A stretch of 64,000 nucleotides of DNA from contig NZ_CP058350.1 in NCBI RefSeq assembly GCF_005860795.2, positions 622,001 to 686,000 on the forward strand, given 5' to 3'. Numbering within the stretch: position 1 is the stretch's first letter; every line of letters starts with the position of its first letter. This document shows positions 14,954 to 29,298 of this stretch, piece after piece. Source of the stretch: Peteryoungia desertarenae. Lineage in GTDB: Bacteria > Pseudomonadota > Alphaproteobacteria > Rhizobiales > Rhizobiaceae. Under the pieces are notes generated by a model. The model was not told the DNA's origin. It saw only the letters and a program-made list of their open reading frames with translations, and made no database searches. Position numbers and translations under genes: made by a program.

Positions 14954-16077
14954 ACCACTCTCATTTCTTCCAGGAAGCGATGGACTTCGGATACAGGAAC
15001 ATCATCGGCGACAAAAGACTGGCCAAGATCCCGTGTCAGGATGAATGTCAGCTTGCCCCCTTTGACCTTCTTGTCCTGCGCGATCGCCGCCATCAATGCA
15101 TCGGTCGGCGCGAGTTCGCCCGGGATCTCGCTCATCCGAGTTGGCAGACCGACAGCCTTGAGATGCCGCTCGACGCGATCGGCAAGATCCGGGCTTGCGA
15201 GATTGAGACGGGCGGAAAAGCGGTGGGCCAGAACCATCCCGATGGAGACGCCTTCTCCGTGAACCAGGCGGCTGCTGTCATATTCGGTAACCGCTTCCAG
15301 CGCATGACCGAAGGTGTGGCCAAGGTTCAAGAGGGCTCGGCGACCGTTCTCCCGTTCATCGGCGACGACCACGTCTGCCTTAGCCTGACAGCTCTGGGCA
15401 ATGGCCTCGATACGGGCCGGCCCACCGGCGAAAACGTCCTGCCAGTTCCTCTCCAGCCATTCAAAGAAGTCCGGCTTGTCGATCAGGCCGTATTTCGCCA
15501 CCTCGGCATAGCCGGCTCGAAATTCGCGCTCGCTCAGCGTATTGAGGATGTCCGTGTCGGCAATCACCAGATCCGGCTGATTGAAAACACCGACAAGGTT
15601 TTTGCCGTGGCGGGTATTGATGCCCGTCTTTCCACCGACGGAGGAATCGACCTGGGATAAAAGAGACGTCGGGATCTGCACGAAGCGCACGCCTCTCCGC
15701 ACGATGCCTGCGGCAAAGCCGGTAAGATCGCCGATCACACCGCCACCCAGCGCAATCACCGCATCATTGCGCTCGATACGGGCTTCCAGAAGCACGTCGC
15801 AGACTTCGGTCAGGCTTTCAAAACTCTTTGTCTTCTCGCCTGCCGGCAGGGTTACGGAAACAGCTTCGATGCCGTCTGTCTGGAGGCTGTCCATCAGCCC
15901 ATCCAGATAAAGCGCACCAACATTCGCGTCGGTCACGATGGCCGCCCGGCGCCCCTTGATGCGGGTCGAGATTTCCCCGCCAGCCTTGGCGATGAGGCCT
16001 GGTCCGATCAGAATGTCATAGGCACGCTCGCCCAGCGGTACGTGGACGATGCGCTCCGCAGTTTCCGATTTACTCAT
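14950..16077 (-). CDS. aroB: 3-dehydroquinate synthase
   Basis: Second step of the shikimate pathway: converts DAHP to 3-dehydroquinate with NAD+ and a divalent metal. The 375-residue protein shows the dinucleotide-binding region AVIALGGGVIGDLTGFAAG and RFVQIPTSLLSQVDSSVGGKTGIN, the catalytic block of the family, and NLGHTFGHALE, where histidines bind the metal. Length is normal. It overlaps both neighbours by 4 bases: aroK upstream and the CorC-type gene downstream. Confidence 0.97.
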   Translation of the reverse strand: MSKSETAERIVHVPLGERAYDILIGPGLIAKAGGEISTRIKGRRAAIVTDANVGALYLDGLMDSLQTDGIEAVSVTLPAGEKTKSFESLTEVCDVLLEARIERNDAVIALGGGVIGDLTGFAAGIVRRGVRFVQIPTSLLSQVDSSVGGKTGINTRHGKNLVGVFNQPDLVIADTDILNTLSEREFRAGYAEVAKYGLIDKPDFFEWLERNWQDVFAGGPARIEAIAQSCQAKADVVVADERENGRRALLNLGHTFGHALEAVTEYDSSRLVHGEGVSIGMVLAHRFSARLNLASPDLADRVERHLKAVGLPTRMSEIPGELAPTDALMAAIAQDKKVKGGKLTFILTRDLGQSFVADDVPVSEVHRFLEEMRVV

Positions 16078-16664
16078 TTGGGTTTACCCTTGTCACAGTA
16101 ATCGATGATTGCCTCAAGCACTTCGTCGACAATCACATCCTTGCGGACATCGCGGGACTGGACAGTCAAATCCGCCTCCGCATAAACCGGGTAGCGACGA
16201 TCCATGAGGTCCTGCAACGTCTGCTTCGGGTTTTCAGTCTTCAGAAGCGGTCGATGGTCGCGCTTGTTGACCCGCTCCCACAAAACATCCAGATCCGCCT
16301 TGAGCCAGATGGACAGGCCGGCGGACTTGATGTGATGTCGACTGTTGTCGTTGATGAAAGCCCCCCCGCCGGTCGAAATGACCCTCGGGCCACCCCGCAT
16401 CAGTCGCTTTATCACCCGTGTCTCAAGTGCGCGAAACTCGTTTTCGCCATAGGCCGCAAACAATTCGGTGATTGTCATGCGCGAAACGCGTTCGATTTCA
16501 TGATCGGTATCAATGAATGGCAGACCCAGTTGCGTGGCCACCATACGGCCAATCGCCGACTTGCCGGCCCCCATGAGCCCAACAAATACAAGATTTCGAC
16601 GTCCGAGTGCCGTCCGGGCGCGCTGGCCAAGAGTCGGCTCTGCGGTAAGAAGGATGTCTGTCAT
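16074..16664 (-). CDS. aroK: shikimate kinase
   Basis: ATP-dependent 3-phosphorylation of shikimate. The protein contains the P-loop GLMGAGKSAIGR, the shikimate-binding DTDHEIE motif (GLPFIDTDHEIERVS), the RALE motif (FRALETRVIKRL) and the ISTGGGAF strand. I start at the ATG at 16664 (MTDILL, 196 aa); a GTG four codons upstream (16676) is an alternative. The gene is first in the aroK-aroB-corC operon, with an ATGA overlap to aroB, and is divergent from the small membrane protein gene and xerD. Confidence 0.96.
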   Translation of the reverse strand: MTDILLTAEPTLGQRARTALGRRNLVFVGLMGAGKSAIGRMVATQLGLPFIDTDHEIERVSRMTITELFAAYGENEFRALETRVIKRLMRGGPRVISTGGGAFINDNSRHHIKSAGLSIWLKADLDVLWERVNKRDHRPLLKTENPKQTLQDLMDRRYPVYAEADLTVQSRDVRKDVIVDEVLEAIIDYCDKGKPK

Positions 16665-24235: not shown

Positions 24236-24312
24236 GGTCCCGTAGCTCAGCAGGATAGAGCATCAGATTCCTAATCTGAGGGTCACGTGTTCGAATCACG
24301 TCGGGATCACCA
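24236..24312 (+). tRNA. tRNA-Arg (anticodon CCU)
   Basis: A 77-base cloverleaf: acceptor GGTCCCG (24236-24242) pairs with CGGGATC (24302-24308), discriminator A then an encoded CCA (24310-24312). The anticodon arm CAGAT/TCCTAA/ATCTG has the loop TTCCTAA with anticodon CCT. The T loop TTCGAAT is standard. No tRNA neighbour is visible, and no duplicated 3' end suggests an inserted element nearby. Confidence 0.97.
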
Positions 24313-24705: not shown

Positions 24706-24876
24706 TCATCGCATCCGGTCCCGGCTATCCTTGTCATAGAGGTCTCTGATAGTTTCCGATTGAGACAGCTTTTCCCGGGAAGACAGTTTGCGCTGCCTCG
24801 TCAGCGCGAATAACAGCGCGCCTCCCAGGATGACGGGACCGATTGCGACTGCAAAGAACCATAAGAAATTGCTCAT
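24706..24876 (-). CDS. 56-residue single-pass membrane protein, stress cluster
   Basis: Reading the minus strand from ATG at 24876 gives MSNFLWFFAVAIGPVILGG followed by ALLFALTRQRKLSSREKLSQ and a charged tail ending DRMR. Residues ~4-26 form one hydrophobic helix, then a basic/acidic cytosolic tail. The ribosome site AAGGAG is 6 bases upstream, and a candidate EcfG-type promoter (GGAAC-N16-GGTT) lies 34 bases before the start. The gene is only 171 bases and easily missed. Function is unknown; the promoter suggests membership of the stress regulon. Confidence 0.65.
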   Translation of the reverse strand: MSNFLWFFAVAIGPVILGGALLFALTRQRKLSSREKLSQSETIRDLYDKDSRDRMR

Positions 24877-24909: not shown

Positions 24910-24934
24910 AACCCCGTTAGGACGCGTTGGTTCC
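24910..24934 (-). promoter_or_regulatory. candidate EcfG-type promoter of the 56-aa membrane protein gene
   Basis: On the minus strand GGAAC (24930-24934) is followed by 16 bases and GGTT (24910-24913). The alphaproteobacterial general-stress consensus is GGAAC-N16/17-CGTT, so the -35 matches exactly and the -10 differs at one base. Confidence 0.5.
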
Positions 24935-24953
24935 GAGGTCTGGAGCGACGGAT

Positions 24954-25124
24954 TTAATCCTGCCGCTCATTCAAGGCATCCTGCAATTGCAGCGCCAGGT
25001 CATGCAAATGTGGCGGCACATCTTCGCGCTTCAGTTCGCTCATCAGGATGTTCAGCTTCTGATGGACGACATCGTCCTTGCGGGCTCGGGAGGAGTCTGG
25101 GTCGGTTTTTGTCTTCTGTGCCAT
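24954..25124 (-). CDS. NepR-like small protein (putative anti-sigma factor paralogue)
   Basis: The 56-residue protein starts MAQKTKTDPDSSRARKDD and then has a helical core, HQKLNILMSELKREDVPPHLHDLALQLQDAL. Relative to the first core Leu, the Leu, Glu-x-Val-Pro and following Leu spacings match the NepR pattern (L...L.E.(I/V)P...LL..L). NepR proteins bind and block EcfG-type sigma factors, and one is encoded 1.1 kb away. Start at 25124 has GGAGGA upstream. The acidic/proline features are weak, so this is a candidate, and it might instead be an unrelated small helical protein. Confidence 0.4.
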   Translation of the reverse strand: MAQKTKTDPDSSRARKDDVVHQKLNILMSELKREDVPPHLHDLALQLQDALNERQD

Positions 25125-25283
25125 GTCATGTCCTCCGGCCGTTACCAACTTGCAACTGCCAGCAGTTACGGTTCACTTACATTTCACCACTACGCAAATG
25201 TTGGGAAATCGGATTGCCTTATCAGCGAACGGAAATCCGACATGCCTGATCGCACGGTCGAAATAGCCCATGGGGCCATCCTC

Positions 25284-25625
25284 TCACACCGCACCGGGCA
25301 AGCTGCCGAACTCCGGAAATTTTTCCGACATGGCTTCACGACTGTCAAACATCATGGCTTCCGAGTGGAGAGTGACTGAGATGTTGTCTCCCACATCCAG
25401 AGGTTCGGCCAGACCGACTTCGACCGAACCGTCGTGATTGCGCTGCAACTCGGCGACGGAGGAAAATCCCATCTGGAGCAACCAGTCCCGAGGGGCCTTC
25501 AAGCTGACCGTGACATGCCAGCTTTCGTCCGTCGCGGCTAGTGCCTTCAGCTGGTAGGTCACGAGCGCATGGCTATCCCCCACATGAAGGCTACCCTGCC
25601 CCTCTGCCATTTCCACTTGTTTCAT
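25284..25625 (-). CDS. hypothetical protein, stress cluster
   Basis: The frame is open far upstream, but the first start with a ribosome site (AGGAC) is the ATG at 25625 (MKQVEMAEGQ), giving 113 residues. The product looks like a small beta-rich globular protein: LVTYQLKALA, WHVTVSLKAPRDWLLQMGFSS, and GSVEVGLAEPLDVGDNISVTLHS. I do not recognise a family. A candidate EcfG-type promoter lies 49 bases upstream of the ATG. The longer frame to 26681 runs antisense over two genes and is rejected. Confidence 0.55.
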   Translation of the reverse strand: MKQVEMAEGQGSLHVGDSHALVTYQLKALAATDESWHVTVSLKAPRDWLLQMGFSSVAELQRNHDGSVEVGLAEPLDVGDNISVTLHSEAMMFDSREAMSEKFPEFGSLPGAV

Positions 25626-25673
25626 CTTTGTCGTCCTCGCGGGATTCGTCTTCACTGCTGTTGCAAGCGGTCG

Positions 25674-25698
25674 AACCAGAGGGGCATCGAGATGTTCC
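25674..25698 (-). promoter_or_regulatory. candidate EcfG-type promoter of the 113-aa protein gene
   Basis: Minus strand GGAAC (25694-25698), 16-base spacer, then GGTT (25674-25677). It is divergent from the exact promoter at 25769. Confidence 0.5.
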
Positions 25699-25768
25699 CG
25701 CAAACCTTCAGAACATATAGCAAGTGTCGATGACAGGAACCCGCAGGATCGACATTTGGTATTACTGT

Positions 25769-25793
25769 GGAACATCGCAGCGGGGGCGGCGTT
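25769..25793 (+). promoter_or_regulatory. EcfG-type promoter of the 87-aa stress protein gene
   Basis: GGAAC (25769-25773), exactly 16 bases, then CGTT (25790-25793). This is a full match to the general-stress sigma consensus of alphaproteobacteria. It is 40 bases before the ATG at 25833. Confidence 0.75.
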
Positions 25794-25832
25794 CGAGTCG
25801 AAGCCTGACAATATCAAACGACGGAGAACGGG

Positions 25833-26096
25833 ATGTCGGACGCGCAACAGACCACCGATCATGAGAGTATCCGGCGGTGGGTGGAAGAACGCAATGGCCG
25901 GCCTGCCCGCGTGAAATCGACCAAGCCCGGAGGTATTCTCCGTATCGATTTCGGCGAACCCGAAGAGTCTCTTGAGCCGATCGACTGGGACCAGTTCTTC
26001 CGGATCTTCGAGGAGAATGATCTGGCTTTCTTGCATCAGGACAAGATCAATTCGGGCAGTCAGAGCCGCTTCAACAAATTCGTTTCCCGCAAATGA
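25833..26096 (+). CDS. conserved small stress-cluster protein
   Basis: The 87-residue protein MSDAQQTTDHESIRRWVEERNGRPARVK... continues with GGILRIDFGEPEESLEPIDWDQFFRIFEENDLAFLHQDK and ends NKFVSRK. Close relatives in rhizobia exist, often annotated as 1,4-alpha-glucan branching enzyme; the short, acidic single domain does not support a carbohydrate enzyme. The pattern is soluble and highly acidic in the middle. Function is unknown, and its exact EcfG-type promoter marks it as a stress-induced gene. It is upstream of the sigma factor but separated by that gene's own promoter. Confidence 0.68.
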   Translation: MSDAQQTTDHESIRRWVEERNGRPARVKSTKPGGILRIDFGEPEESLEPIDWDQFFRIFEENDLAFLHQDKINSGSQSRFNKFVSRK

Positions 26097-26138
26097 AGGT
26101 TCGAACGCATACCTCGATCCGCTCATCTCCGCGCCAGC

Positions 26139-26163
26139 GGAACCTTGGTTGCTCAAGGACGTT
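26139..26163 (+). promoter_or_regulatory. EcfG-type promoter of the sigma factor gene (autoregulation)
   Basis: GGAAC (26139-26143), 16 bases, CGTT (26160-26163). The motif overlaps the ORF track's longer start, so the real start must be further downstream, at the TTG at 26211. Confidence 0.75.
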
Positions 26164-26210
26164 TCATGCGCATTGCGCTCAATTGCATTTATCCCTGGAG
26201 GAGGGCGACC

Positions 26211-26729
26211 TTGTCGACACAAAGACCAGAGCTTGCCGCACAATCCGAGGTGGTTGAACTCATTCCCGCTTTGAGGGCCTTTGCCCGGACATTCTGCCCC
26301 AAGCCGGAAGAAGCCGATGATCTCGTGCAGGAGACGCTCACGAAAGCGCTCGCCAACCTCGACAAGTTCGAACCGGGTACGCGGCTTAAATCCTGGCTCT
26401 TCACAATCATGCGCAACACGTTTTGCACCCGTATCAAGAAAAGCAGCCGCGAGACGATCGGCCTGCCGGAAGGGATCACGGCTCGACTGACGACGGAGGC
26501 AAGCCAGGAATGGACTGTCCAAGCGGAAGAGGTTCGCAGAGCTCTGGAACGCTTGCCATCGCATCATCGCGAAATGCTGGTCCTGATCGTCATGCTGGGA
26601 GAGCGCTATGAGGATGCCGCCGAGATTTGCGGCTGCGCTGTCGGAACGGTGAAAAGCCGGCTGAGCAGGGCACGCCAGCAATTGAGACGCGAACTCGGAG
26701 AAGTGTCTTCCCCCGCCTCACTCGAATGA
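26211..26729 (+). CDS. EcfG-type ECF RNA polymerase sigma factor
   Basis: The product of 172 aa has region 2 (ALRAFARTFCPKPEEADDLVQETLTKALANLDKFEPGTRLKSWLFTIMRNTFC) and region 4 (ALERLPSHHREMLVLIVMLGERYEDAAEICGCAVGTVKSRLSRARQQL), typical of the EcfG/ECF15 general-stress group. I choose the TTG at 26211: GGAGGAGGG lies about 5 bases upstream, and the longer frame from 26145 lies across the promoter. The ATGA overlap places topoisomerase IB directly downstream as the second gene. The canonical phyR and nepR genes are not adjacent, so this may be a second EcfG copy. Confidence 0.88.
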   Translation: MSTQRPELAAQSEVVELIPALRAFARTFCPKPEEADDLVQETLTKALANLDKFEPGTRLKSWLFTIMRNTFCTRIKKSSRETIGLPEGITARLTTEASQEWTVQAEEVRRALERLPSHHREMLVLIVMLGERYEDAAEICGCAVGTVKSRLSRARQQLRRELGEVSSPASLE

Positions 26730-27802
26730 ATGCATCAGATGAAAGGCGACCACAAGCCGATCTGTTGAAACCGGATTTAGCCAGCCTGCGGCAGATGGGT
26801 CTGATTTATGTGACAGATACCATGCCGGGGATCACTCGGCGAAGATGCGGCAAGGGCTTTGCCTATCGTTGGCCAGATGGTGCCCGGCTCGATGATCATG
26901 CGACACTGGCCCGCATCCGCAATCTTGGCCTCCCGCCAGCCTATGAACAGGTCTGGATTTGTCTCGATCCGAAGGGGCATCTGCAAGCGACGGGTCTCGA
27001 CGCCAAAGGGCGCAAGCAATACCGCTATCATCCAGACTGGGCTGCCTGGAGAAGCCAGCAGAAGTTCGATCAACTGTTGCCCTTCGGCAGGAAACTGCCC
27101 GTCATCCGCCGCCATGTTCTTGAAGACCTCAAGGGGGACGGCGACCTTCAGACATTTCTCCTCGCGACACTCGTCATACTGCTTGATGTGACCCACATGC
27201 GGGTCGGAAACCGCAGCTATGCCGAGGAAAACAAGACTTTCGGGGCGACAACCCTGCTGAAACGCCACCTGCATTTCGACGAAGACGCGATCCGCATCAG
27301 CTTTACTGCAAAGGGAGGAAAGCGCGTTCGCCGCACATTGCGGCATCCGAGACTGCAACGCGTGCTGGAGGAGATTTCCGACCTGCCAGGCCGCGACCTG
27401 TTCTCGTGGAAGGACAGCGGAGGTACACTCCATCGCATCGATTCCGGTCGCCTGAACCAATACTTGTCGGAAACGAGCGGCAATCACGTCTCCGCCAAGA
27501 CCTTTCGCACATGGGGCGGCAGCGTCGCGGCCCTCGCCGCGGCGGGCAAAGCACTTCGCGCGGGCGAGAAGATTACCGTCAAGCTCATGTGCCAAGCCGC
27601 CGCCGAGACACTGCACAACACTCCGGCAATTTGCCGCAACAGCTATGTCCATCCTCATATCCTGAAGCTTGCTTCCGATGACGACGCAGCAGAACGTCTG
27701 GTCTTGGTGGATCAGCCAGATAAGATTAGTGGGCTCAGGAGAGACGAGGATCGATTAATGGCATTTCTGCAGCAGGCTTCTGTTCGAGATGAGCAGACAT
27801 GA
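26726..27802 (+). CDS. DNA topoisomerase IB
   Basis: Eukaryotic-type topoisomerase that relaxes supercoils through a 3'-phosphotyrosine. From the ATG at 26726 the 358-residue protein carries the catalytic tyrosine in NSYVHP (Y307), R159 in THMRVGNRSY, K197 in TAKGGKR, and R261 in KTFRTWGGS. The N-terminal region before residue ~90 has the GRRCGKGFAYRW stretch that binds DNA. It overlaps the sigma-factor stop by 4 bases (ATGA), so it is translated with it. Bacterial TopIB genes sit in stress regulons of several alphaproteobacteria. A terminator shared with DUF892 follows. Confidence 0.93.
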   Translation: MNASDERRPQADLLKPDLASLRQMGLIYVTDTMPGITRRRCGKGFAYRWPDGARLDDHATLARIRNLGLPPAYEQVWICLDPKGHLQATGLDAKGRKQYRYHPDWAAWRSQQKFDQLLPFGRKLPVIRRHVLEDLKGDGDLQTFLLATLVILLDVTHMRVGNRSYAEENKTFGATTLLKRHLHFDEDAIRISFTAKGGKRVRRTLRHPRLQRVLEEISDLPGRDLFSWKDSGGTLHRIDSGRLNQYLSETSGNHVSAKTFRTWGGSVAALAAAGKALRAGEKITVKLMCQAAAETLHNTPAICRNSYVHPHILKLASDDDAAERLVLVDQPDKISGLRRDEDRLMAFLQQASVRDEQT

Positions 27803-27805
27803 CAA

Positions 27806-27828
27806 AAGCCGGCTTGGGGAGCCGGCTT
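27806..27828 (-). terminator. rho-independent terminator of the DUF892 gene
   Basis: AAGCCGGCT (27806-27814) and AGCCGGCTT (27820-27828) form a perfect 9-bp stem. On the minus strand it is followed by TTTTG, 23 bases after the stop of the DUF892 gene; it may also stop topoisomerase transcription. Confidence 0.75.
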
Positions 27829-27850
27829 CAATCATCAGCGTGATGAATGA

Positions 27851-28351
27851 TCACGCAGCCTTTTTCTGGGCAGCTGTATTGACCGCCTTCTCGGCAAGCT
27901 TGGTCAGCGCTTCGTCCGTCCTGGATTCCTCATCCAGCGTCTGCTTGAGAAGTTTGGCAGCATCCTTGTAGCCCAGCTGTTCGGCCCAGGCATGAAGAGT
28001 ACCGTAGCGGCTGATTTCGTAGTGCTCGACCGCCTGAGCCGCTGCAAGCAGACCTGCGTCTAAGGCCGCGGTACCTTTGAACTCTTCAAGGATCTCTTCA
28101 CCCTCCGAGACAATGCCTTCGATGGCATCACAGGTCTTTGCCCGGGGGCGCTTTCCAATCATTTCAAATACCTGCTGGAGCCGCTCGATCTGGCCTTCCG
28201 TCTCGTCCCGGTGCTTTTCGAAGGCAGCCTTCAGCTTTTCGTCCTGTGCTCCACGGGCCATTTTCGGCAGTGTCTTCAGGATCTTACGCTCGGCGTAATA
28301 GATGTCCTTCAGCGTTTCGTGGAACAGGTCTTCAAGGGTTTTCTCAGCCAT
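27851..28351 (-). CDS. ferritin-like domain protein, DUF892/YciE-YciF family
   Basis: The 166-residue protein is a four-helix bundle of the YciF type: MAEKTLEDLFHETLKDIYYAERKILKTLPKMARGAQDEKLKAAFEKHRDETEGQIERLQQVFEMI... with acidic metal-ligand positions on the helices (E, H in KHRDETEGQ; EHYEISRYGTL). YciE/YciF proteins are expressed in general stress in enterobacteria, and their metal chemistry is unsettled. A candidate EcfG-type promoter is 40 bases upstream. Confidence 0.88.
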   Translation of the reverse strand: MAEKTLEDLFHETLKDIYYAERKILKTLPKMARGAQDEKLKAAFEKHRDETEGQIERLQQVFEMIGKRPRAKTCDAIEGIVSEGEEILEEFKGTAALDAGLLAAAQAVEHYEISRYGTLHAWAEQLGYKDAAKLLKQTLDEESRTDEALTKLAEKAVNTAAQKKAA

Positions 28352-28390
28352 GTGATTTATCTCCTATCGCTTAGAAACAAGCTCCCTAAC

Positions 28391-28416
28391 AACAGGAGAT
28401 CACCTCCAATTGTTCC
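28391..28416 (-). promoter_or_regulatory. candidate EcfG-type promoter of the DUF892 gene
   Basis: Minus strand GGAAC (28412-28416), 17 bases, TGTT (28391-28394). The -35 is exact, and the spacer is one longer with a -10 mismatch. Confidence 0.4.
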
Positions 28417-28461
28417 TGCCGAATGGAGTCAATCGTGGGCCGACGATGAGGGGCCTTTCAA

Positions 28462-28486
28462 GGAACGTTCGCCCCCAACGGACGTT
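28462..28486 (+). promoter_or_regulatory. EcfG-type promoter of the BON-domain gene
   Basis: GGAAC (28462-28466), 16 bases, CGTT (28483-28486); a full consensus match 51 bases before the ATG at 28537. Confidence 0.75.
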
Positions 28487-28536: not shown

Positions 28537-29298
28537 ATGGTCAACCGAGACAGAGACAACTGGTATGCAAGCCGCGAAGCCCGCAACGTCCAGCGAAGAC
28601 CTGGTGGGTATAGTGGCGACGGTGACTACGGCCCCGGCGAAAGCGGCTTTGTCCGAGGCTACGAGCAACGCCGACCCGATGCCGACCGCTATGGCCCTGA
28701 TCGACAGATGGACTATGGAAATGAAGGTGGCTACGGCTCCTATGCCGGGTCGCGTTATCCCCGCATGGGCCGTGAGGACTGGACAACCGACGACCTCGGC
28801 TATTACGGCGACATGAGCGATCGGGGCTATGGCGACCGCACCCGTGGATATGCCCGCGGGGCGGGCAGCGGCTATTATCCATCCGATCATCCTTCCTATC
28901 GGGGCGGCTATGGTCGACGTCGAGGCGAGCCCGAGGAAGATCGCGGCTTTCTGGATCGGGCGAGCGACGAGGTGGCATCCTGGTTCGGCGATGACGAGGC
29001 GTCCAGGAGACGCGAACGTGACACCCATCGCGGCAAGGGACCCAAGGGCTACAAGCGTTCCGATTCCCGAATACAGGAGGACGCGAATGACCGTCTCGCC
29101 GATGACGGCTCAGTCGATGCCTCGGACATCGAGGTGAGCGTAAAGGATGGCGAAGTGACGCTCAGCGGCTTTGTCACAGACCGTTGGGAAAAGCGCCGTG
29201 CCGAAGATTGCGTGGACGAGGTCTCGGGCGTCAGTCACGTCCAGAATAACCTTCGCGTTCGCACCTCGGGCGAGGGCCAGACACAGACGTCGATCTAG
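28537..29298 (+). CDS. BON domain-containing protein with Gly/Tyr/Arg-rich N-terminus
   Basis: The 253-residue protein splits in two. Residues 1-~165 are a disordered-looking region rich in Gly, Tyr, Arg and Asp with repeated short motifs such as RGYGDR and YGRR. Residues ~175-250 form one BON domain (DASDIEVSVKDGEVTLSGFVTDRWEKRRAEDCVDEVSGVSHVQNNLRV), a fold linked to phospholipid or envelope binding in OsmY-type proteins. No signal peptide is visible, so location is uncertain. An exact EcfG-type promoter places it in the stress regulon. Its stop overlaps the convergent P-type ATPase stop. Confidence 0.82.
   Translation: MVNRDRDNWYASREARNVQRRPGGYSGDGDYGPGESGFVRGYEQRRPDADRYGPDRQMDYGNEGGYGSYAGSRYPRMGREDWTTDDLGYYGDMSDRGYGDRTRGYARGAGSGYYPSDHPSYRGGYGRRRGEPEEDRGFLDRASDEVASWFGDDEASRRRERDTHRGKGPKGYKRSDSRIQEDANDRLADDGSVDASDIEVSVKDGEVTLSGFVTDRWEKRRAEDCVDEVSGVSHVQNNLRVRTSGEGQTQTSI

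Follow-up and report, generated by a model that had tools for sequence, protein, structure and literature searches.

Why does a genome keep a second sigma factor of the EcfG type, far from its general stress locus and among promoters of the EcfG type? The question is raised by a gene cluster of Peteryoungia desertarenae. The window we have analysed is a stretch of 64,000 nucleotides of this species (assembly GCF_005860795.2, contig NZ_CP058350.1, here C1, positions 622,001–686,000; a window coordinate is the C1 coordinate minus 622000). Its genome, G000 in our sample, has 4.34 Mb in three contigs. An earlier note on the window had described the cluster as a self-amplifying stress module, an interpretation which we find partly supported. 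From sequence comparison we propose, with moderate confidence, that these genes form a second, non-canonical EcfG module for the general stress response, which comprises a sigma factor, a NepR-like brake, stress genes and shared promoters. The NepR-like gene was not mentioned in the earlier note; since it is present, the cluster is a probable module of sigma and anti-sigma factor and not an amplifier alone. The genes are the following:

24706–24876, minus strand: tm56, a membrane peptide of 56 residues (open frame)
24954–25124, minus strand: p64, candidate NepR-like anti-sigma factor (56 residues from the ATG at 25124; the TTG form has 64)
25284–25625, minus strand: p108, a rare protein of 113 residues, function not assigned (its 108-residue form has no Pfam match)
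25833–26096, plus strand: p87, a conserved small protein, function not assigned (960 homologues)
26211–26729, plus strand: non-canonical EcfG-type sigma factor, EcfG2/RpoE5-like, 172 residues, TTG start (Pfam, tree)
26726–27802, plus strand: topoisomerase IB (Pfam PF01028 and PF21338), coupled to the sigma gene as had been claimed: its ATG overlaps the sigma stop (ATGA)
27851–28351, minus strand: DUF892 ferritin-like protein (PF05974, E 2.3e-63)
28537–29298, plus strand: protein with BON and SWFGD domains (PF04972, E 2.6e-20; NF033157, E 1.4e-14)

A sigma factor outside the canonical locus

The window sigma factor matches PF04542 (r2), PF08281 (r4_2) and PF22029 (PhyR_sigma2), all above cut-offs, and its best solved relative is chain A of 5uxx (E 3.7e-36). 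It is not the main general-stress sigma factor of the genome; that one is found elsewhere, with PhyR and NepR, at C1:365-371 kb. There we find PhyR, an HWE kinase, two NepR genes recognized at Pfam level and the canonical EcfG. This PhyR has a receiver and both sigma-like domains and is the only one found in the genome. The window sigma gene lies at C1:648 kb, about 280 kb from the phyR/nepR locus and adjacent to neither gene; its product is 46% identical to the canonical EcfG of the same genome. As a side observation, between EcfG and PhyR the canonical locus (L118:4839-7003, minus strand) carries a putative zinc metallopeptidase (Peptidase_Mx) and the HWE histidine kinase.

In a tree of 100 rows the 40 rows of canonical EcfG, among which several are identical, are separate (support 93/89). 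The window sigma is found within a set of 14 rows (97/87); RpoE5 of Sinorhizobium meliloti and EcfG2 of Rhizobium etli also fall outside the canonical group. The deeper forks are unsettled and the branch of R. etli EcfG2 is long; a common clade of the non-canonical sigma factors is therefore not proved. Two unrelated ECF sigma factors of the same genome joined the canonical side on long branches. We call the window sigma a non-canonical, EcfG2-type paralogue; it is not the canonical EcfG of its genome. Two further sigma factors with a PhyR_sigma2 match, at C1:215 kb and C1:2005 kb, were rejected as extra copies of EcfG: behind each of them lies an open frame which we take for an anti-sigma gene, and their identity with EcfG as well as with the window sigma is 33–42%.

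For comparison, species genomes were scanned with the window sigma protein; the best 80 of 512 confirmed relatives are our sigma loci. The best 15 of them (L038-L052) have sigma factors 76–93% identical to that of the window and are near kin, not independent samples. In 11 related loci the sigma is 84–93% identical, similar to the housekeeping protein dxr (80–86% there); p87 and topoisomerase IB are mostly 60–69% identical. Since its identity is far above that of its cluster neighbours, the sigma is under strong constraint.

We also sampled the family with 101 genomes, one per genus by listing. Sigma matches at E<=1e-35 are found in 81 of them, mostly to canonical EcfG. A genome was assigned by hand as EcfG2-positive when it has a second sigma 53–99% identical to that of the window to which canonical EcfG is no better match; by hand count there are 18 such genomes, our own included. 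Two more (G018 and G075), whose sigma is 47–48% identical and had a better score with that of the window than with canonical EcfG, were both classed as EcfG2-negative.

Promoter sites and their conservation

The six sites which had been reported are present and oriented into genes. Three are exact, all on the plus strand, and three are near matches:

24910–24934, minus strand: promoter of tm56, GGAAC-N16-GGTT, start codon 33 bases after the -10 element
25674–25698, minus strand: promoter of p108, GGAAC-N16-GGTT, 48 bases
25769–25793, plus strand: promoter of p87, GGAAC-N16-CGTT, 39 bases
26139–26163, plus strand: promoter of the sigma gene, GGAAC-N16-CGTT, 47 bases to the TTG at 26211
28391–28416, minus strand: promoter of DUF892, GGAAC-N17-TGTT, 39 bases
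28462–28486, plus strand: promoter of the BON gene, GGAAC-N16-CGTT, 50 bases

The distances are thus 33–50 bases, with 47 for the sigma gene, where 34–51 and about 48 had been given. Counting of motifs is less informative. The expectation of one exact site per 262 kb per strand is right only for uniform composition and the N16 spacer; on both strands and with both spacers we observe about one per 49 kb. A genome-wide scan gave no excess of the exact pattern GGAAC-N16/17-CGTT: 88 matches in 4.34 Mb versus 124 for the reversed pattern. The window itself has five, versus a shuffle mean of 0.87 (none of 100 shuffles reached five); the two outside the cluster (17528 and 39743) fall within long open frames. 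Three or more exact sites in 3.6 kb are not rare (778 of 5000 random placements, 66 sites, first 3.1 Mb of C1), while six BGTT sites are (2 of 5000 placements over the same 3.1 Mb, with 100 of the 134 K sites listed). Motif counting as a proof of promoters was rejected, as there is no genome-wide excess in the count; the accompanying check of gene starts was crude and covered the first 30 of the 88 exact sites.

What decides is conservation. We looked for GGAAC-N16/17-BGTT on the correct strand in the 120 bp upstream of the six genes, with five other genes as controls. In the 15 related loci 52 of 61 promoter slots have a site, versus one of 57 control regions (0.009 expected per slot from the rate elsewhere). 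The spacers vary, while the -35 and -10 elements and their spacing persist. By this sequence conservation the six sites are confirmed, and EcfG-type promoters before these genes are supported. The tm56 site reads GGTT in L039, L040 and L042 and is missing in L048 and L052. Although p108 has few protein relatives, a p108-like frame with its site is kept within the clade. The DUF892 site is found within 110 bp in 14 of the 15 related loci and in the window, the BON site in five of the seven related loci with a BON match. Ahead of the sigma gene a site within 110 bp is present in 12 of the 15 loci and in the window; in L052 it is more distant, while L039 and L040 have none there but retain the p87 promoter. 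That the sigma gene has a conserved site of its own also holds more widely: 43 of the 80 loci have one within 330 bp upstream, every one CGTT. Within this distance of the sigma gene a site is missing from all 27 loci titled Mesorhizobium.

The first base of the -10 element is C at p87 (nine of the nine loci with p87, window included) and at the sigma gene (13 of 13). It is mostly G or T at tm56, p108 (6 G and 5 T in window and relatives), DUF892 and BON. This split may mark two promoter classes. A dependence of this base on the presence of EcfG2 in the genome was also considered, but it is unsupported by the DUF892 genes of the family sample, taken from 30 of the 52 genomes having a match. The best DUF892 gene in 12 EcfG2-positive genomes has 2 C, 1 T, 1 G, 1 A and in seven cases no site (15–110 bp); in 18 EcfG2-negative genomes it has 5 C, 4 G, 4 A, 1 T and in four cases no site. 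When DUF892 is linked to an EcfG2-type sigma, in 18 further loci (L053-L117, L122, L123), we find 11 G, 4 A and three without site.

These counts have another consequence. As 14 of the 18 genomes counted as EcfG2-negative have an EcfG-type site before DUF892 (13 of 17 without G018), the canonical EcfG is probably able to serve these promoters. The cluster might then be an outpost of the canonical regulon, in which the local sigma is just another target with little output and the small NepR-like protein a passenger. The published papers are cited here by PMC number, for those parts of them that were available. Two of them agree with such an outpost: the exact window sites match the R. etli EcfG1 consensus (PMC3892343), and overexpression of S. 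meliloti RpoE5 raised a single target (PMC6180224). Against it stand the constraint on the sigma, so much closer to its relatives than the neighbouring genes are, and the behaviour of R. etli EcfG2, which controls a regulon of its own and in Escherichia coli is active on its own promoter (PMC3892343). We consider the outpost unlikely, although it is the strongest competitor of a separate module. Of the self-amplifying stress module, the stress-type genes and the sigma gene with its own site stand; amplification would be only one way to read them, because canonical EcfG could use the same sites.

Elsewhere in G000, at C1:1075222-1079338, six GGAAC-N16/17-KGTT sites are found within 4.1 kb, possibly a further stress cluster.

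A NepR-like gene beside the sigma gene

Beside S. meliloti rpoE5 an unannotated open frame similar to RsiA1/RsiA2 has been described on the opposite strand of the downstream gene (PMC6180224). For this reason we built a NepR profile and applied it to the sigma loci. It has 31 sequences: the two of our genome and 29 from canonical EcfG loci, where 29 of 29 have a NepR match. Applied to the open frames in six reading frames, it finds mostly a single minus-strand frame per sigma locus. A second profile, of the p64 family, was made from 54 matches of the first one, leaving out the window member; it gives the window frame E 3.6e-12. At E<1e-3 the family is detected in 67 of our 80 loci; the best match in reversed DNA has E 2.8. 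Because 52 of the 80 loci supplied seeds, 15 of these 67 finds are independent. All 15 close relatives carry the family, the weakest being L049 (8.3e-4). The 13 loci without it at E<1e-3 are L053, L058, L059, L065, L070, L073, L075, L092, L094, L105, L111, L113 and L114; L058, L059, L065 and L070 have weak matches at a shared position and L113 matches the NepR profile.

In the 101 family genomes the p64 profile gives 37 matches, 10 strongest and 27 weaker. Among the weaker ones, 17 are genes less than 100 bp upstream of canonical EcfG on the same strand, the usual position of nepR; one lies 133 bp behind canonical EcfG, another is 2.4 kb away from a sigma of the EcfG2 type, and the remaining eight lie elsewhere. 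Six of the 10 strongest are within 5 kb of an EcfG2-type sigma (one of the 10 is our own genome, a row of the profile). The other four are at a contig end (G073), on a 13.6-kb contig with topoisomerase IB (G035), 27 kb away (G060) and on a separate contig (G070). Strong matches are found in nine of the 18 EcfG2-positive genomes versus one of the 83 others (Fisher 2e-7). That one is G073, where a truncated EcfG2-type sigma (63% over 38 residues) lies beside p64 at the contig end. G073 has a second p64-like gene, which adjoins a tm56-like gene (L246:7504-8222); a p87 gene lies 8 kb away (15839-16096), and no EcfG-type sigma was detected within this 18-kb stretch.

The relation to NepR is seen at the level of the family. 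Pfam NepR is matched by 14 of 33 aligned members (best 1.8e-4). Alignment of the p64 family with NepR by hhalign has a probability of 95.7% (E 9e-9, score 43.4, 36 gapless columns); the best of 100 column shuffles scores 15.4 and the reversed alignment 13.1. The top two PDB matches of the family are NepR chains, 5uxx_B (E 0.16) and 4qic_B (E 0.23). The best solved relatives of the sigma and of the p64 family are thus chains A and B of one entry, 5uxx. NepR has two helices joined at a conserved proline. The p64 model has helices at 9–33 and 38–55 with a break at E-D-V-P (mean predicted local distance difference test, pLDDT, 74). In UniRef some members are labelled 'Anti-sigma factor NepR domain-containing' and many are named hypothetical protein. 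Taken together, these alignments indicate homology between the p64 family and NepR. The window p64 is probably a diverged NepR-like partner of the sigma, to which it would bind.

Could the sites and the small frame be chance products of GC-rich sequence? Short open frames are common and the exact motif is not enriched genome-wide, as stated above. However, the sites and their spacing are preserved while the spacers diverge, and p64 keeps six invariant residues, start included, across 33 rows. It also keeps a ribosome site within the clade: GGAGG lies seven bases ahead of its ATG, and all 11 clade rows have GGAG before the start. Chance is refuted by both conservation tests, that of the promoter slots and that of the p64 family in the sigma loci; we give it hardly any probability.

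The homology itself suggests another role: the NepR-like protein might bind PhyR, as an anti-anti-anti-sigma factor, and be no brake on the sigma. Such a role has been proposed for NepR homologues of Methylobacterium extorquens, two of which bound PhyR and no EcfG (PMC4814048). But p64 genes accompany sigma genes of the EcfG2 type, and PhyR has a match in just four of the 80 sigma loci, all weak. Furthermore, where all 23 NepR rows have a tyrosine, p64 has leucine or methionine (32 of 33 rows) or valine (one of 33), so that the surface differs from that of NepR. This alternative appears quite improbable.

Regulation, known systems and neighbouring genes

How would such a module work? In unstressed cells the NepR-like protein would keep the scarce EcfG2 bound. 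When stress sets in, canonical EcfG would be released by phosphorylated PhyR and would activate the cluster promoters, that of ecfG2 included; EcfG2 would then boost transcription of itself and its neighbours. As the brake gene mostly has no EcfG-type site of its own, it may set a threshold which the sigma has to exceed. An NGTT site within 400 bp upstream of the p64 core is found in seven of 72 loci (the window, L121 and L124 included). No terminator-like hairpin was found on the minus strand between p108, p64 and tm56; p64 may therefore also be transcribed here from the p108 promoter, about 550 bases upstream, and a delayed negative feedback would then be added. A terminator-like hairpin is found directly past tm56, at 24700-24681. 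The EcfG-dependent genes listed for Sphingomonas melonis include one for topoisomerase IB, whose promoter reads GGAAC...CATT (PMC6599016); this agrees with the place of topoisomerase IB behind the window sigma.

Several results weigh against this module. The window p64 scores weakly with the NepR profile (E 1.2) and by itself has no match to Pfam NepR PF18557, so that the case for NepR rests on the family. The PDB matches to NepR chains are weak when taken alone, and a fold search with the p64 model was uninformative, with no significant match. A search with the p64 profile finds no member beside R. etli EcfG2 (L122, L123), and nine of the 18 EcfG2-positive genomes have no match at E<1e-6. Three of 72 members (L049, L051, L090) have an EcfG-type site 15–120 bp before an in-frame start; two of them belong to the close clade, so that an unregulated brake is not universal. 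Unlinked DUF892 genes have a site in just five of 12 EcfG2-positive genomes. As to other bacteria, the single target of RpoE5 speaks in the same sense, and the M. extorquens NepR homologues failed to bind any EcfG in two-hybrid assays (PMC4814048).

With the canonical PhyR-NepR-EcfG switch the cluster shares the family of its sigma factor, the promoter motif and the family of the candidate anti-sigma factor. It differs by the absence of an adjacent PhyR, by a sigma with the 46% identity given above and by a strongly diverged NepR-like protein, for which most loci have no separate EcfG-type site. A close counterpart is RpoE5 of S. meliloti (SMb21484), also a non-canonical ECF15 sigma; its matched part is 54% identical. 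Next to its gene, tail-to-tail, is a p64-family frame (L121:4540-4695, E 4.1e-18, one of the seeds), where the published RsiA-like frame was described. rpoE5 is a target of RpoE2 and its published promoter lies 80 bases ahead of the sigma gene in L121 (PMC6180224). Unlike the window, its -10 element is CATT in the published table (PMC6180224), it is placed on pSymB, and no topoisomerase IB, DUF892 or BON is annotated in 8.4 kb.

R. etli EcfG2 (PF00052), which we infer to be L122:6674-7201, is a sigma of the same kind, also remote from phyR/nepR, with a ferritin-like gene beside it (L122) preceded by an EcfG-type site (AGTT). It is autoregulated and partly EcfG1-dependent (PMC3892343). In contrast to the window it is plasmid-borne, its neighbours include a cytochrome P450, and no NepR-like gene was found in the 20 kb around it. 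Extra EcfG copies tied to the general stress response are also known as SigU in Caulobacter, EcfG2 in Sphingomonas and the paralogues of Methylobacterium (PMC8103513, PMC4814048). We liken them to the window by description; unlike our proposal, those of Caulobacter crescentus and Sphingomonas reportedly show no NepR interaction, according to the available text of PMC3892343.

A review states that ECF sigma factors without obvious anti-sigma factor raise unsettled questions and that there is no consensus on the functions of EcfG paralogues; in its available part it mentions no NepR of R. etli other than the chromosomal one (PMC8103513). A search which covered few subscription journals and no supplements showed no publication that describes, across the family, NepR-like genes accompanying non-canonical EcfG. 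A hint of such a gene is already in print for S. meliloti rpoE5. For the control of extra EcfG copies the conserved NepR-like gene supplies a concrete candidate partner, and it suggests that reports of no anti-sigma factor nearby may reflect short, diverged genes. A more tentative idea, which we put at somewhat below even chances, is that in Rhizobiales the non-canonical EcfGs make up a second partner switch, with a dedicated, strongly diverged NepR which responds no longer to PhyR but to another antagonist or to sigma dosage. If true, EcfG2 would integrate a second input with a built-in threshold.

p108 has six relatives at E<=0.001 among 5.8 billion proteins, itself included. Some homologues of p87 are labelled 1,4-alpha-glucan branching enzyme in UniRef; its model (mean pLDDT 85) has no significant match among solved folds, and a Pfam search was uninformative. 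Proteins like tm56 are found in five of 16 loci (L038-L053), and a topoisomerase IB-like gene lies immediately behind the sigma in eight of the 15 close relatives. Just upstream of the cluster we find one further feature:

24236–24312, plus strand: tRNA-Arg (CCT)

Outer neighbours are kept in close relatives: a P-type ATPase and dxr in 13 of 15 each, an amidohydrolase in 11 of 15. By tblastn the inner genes (topoisomerase IB, BON, p87 and tm56) are variably present and the outer ones mostly stable, so that the cluster resembles a variable island.

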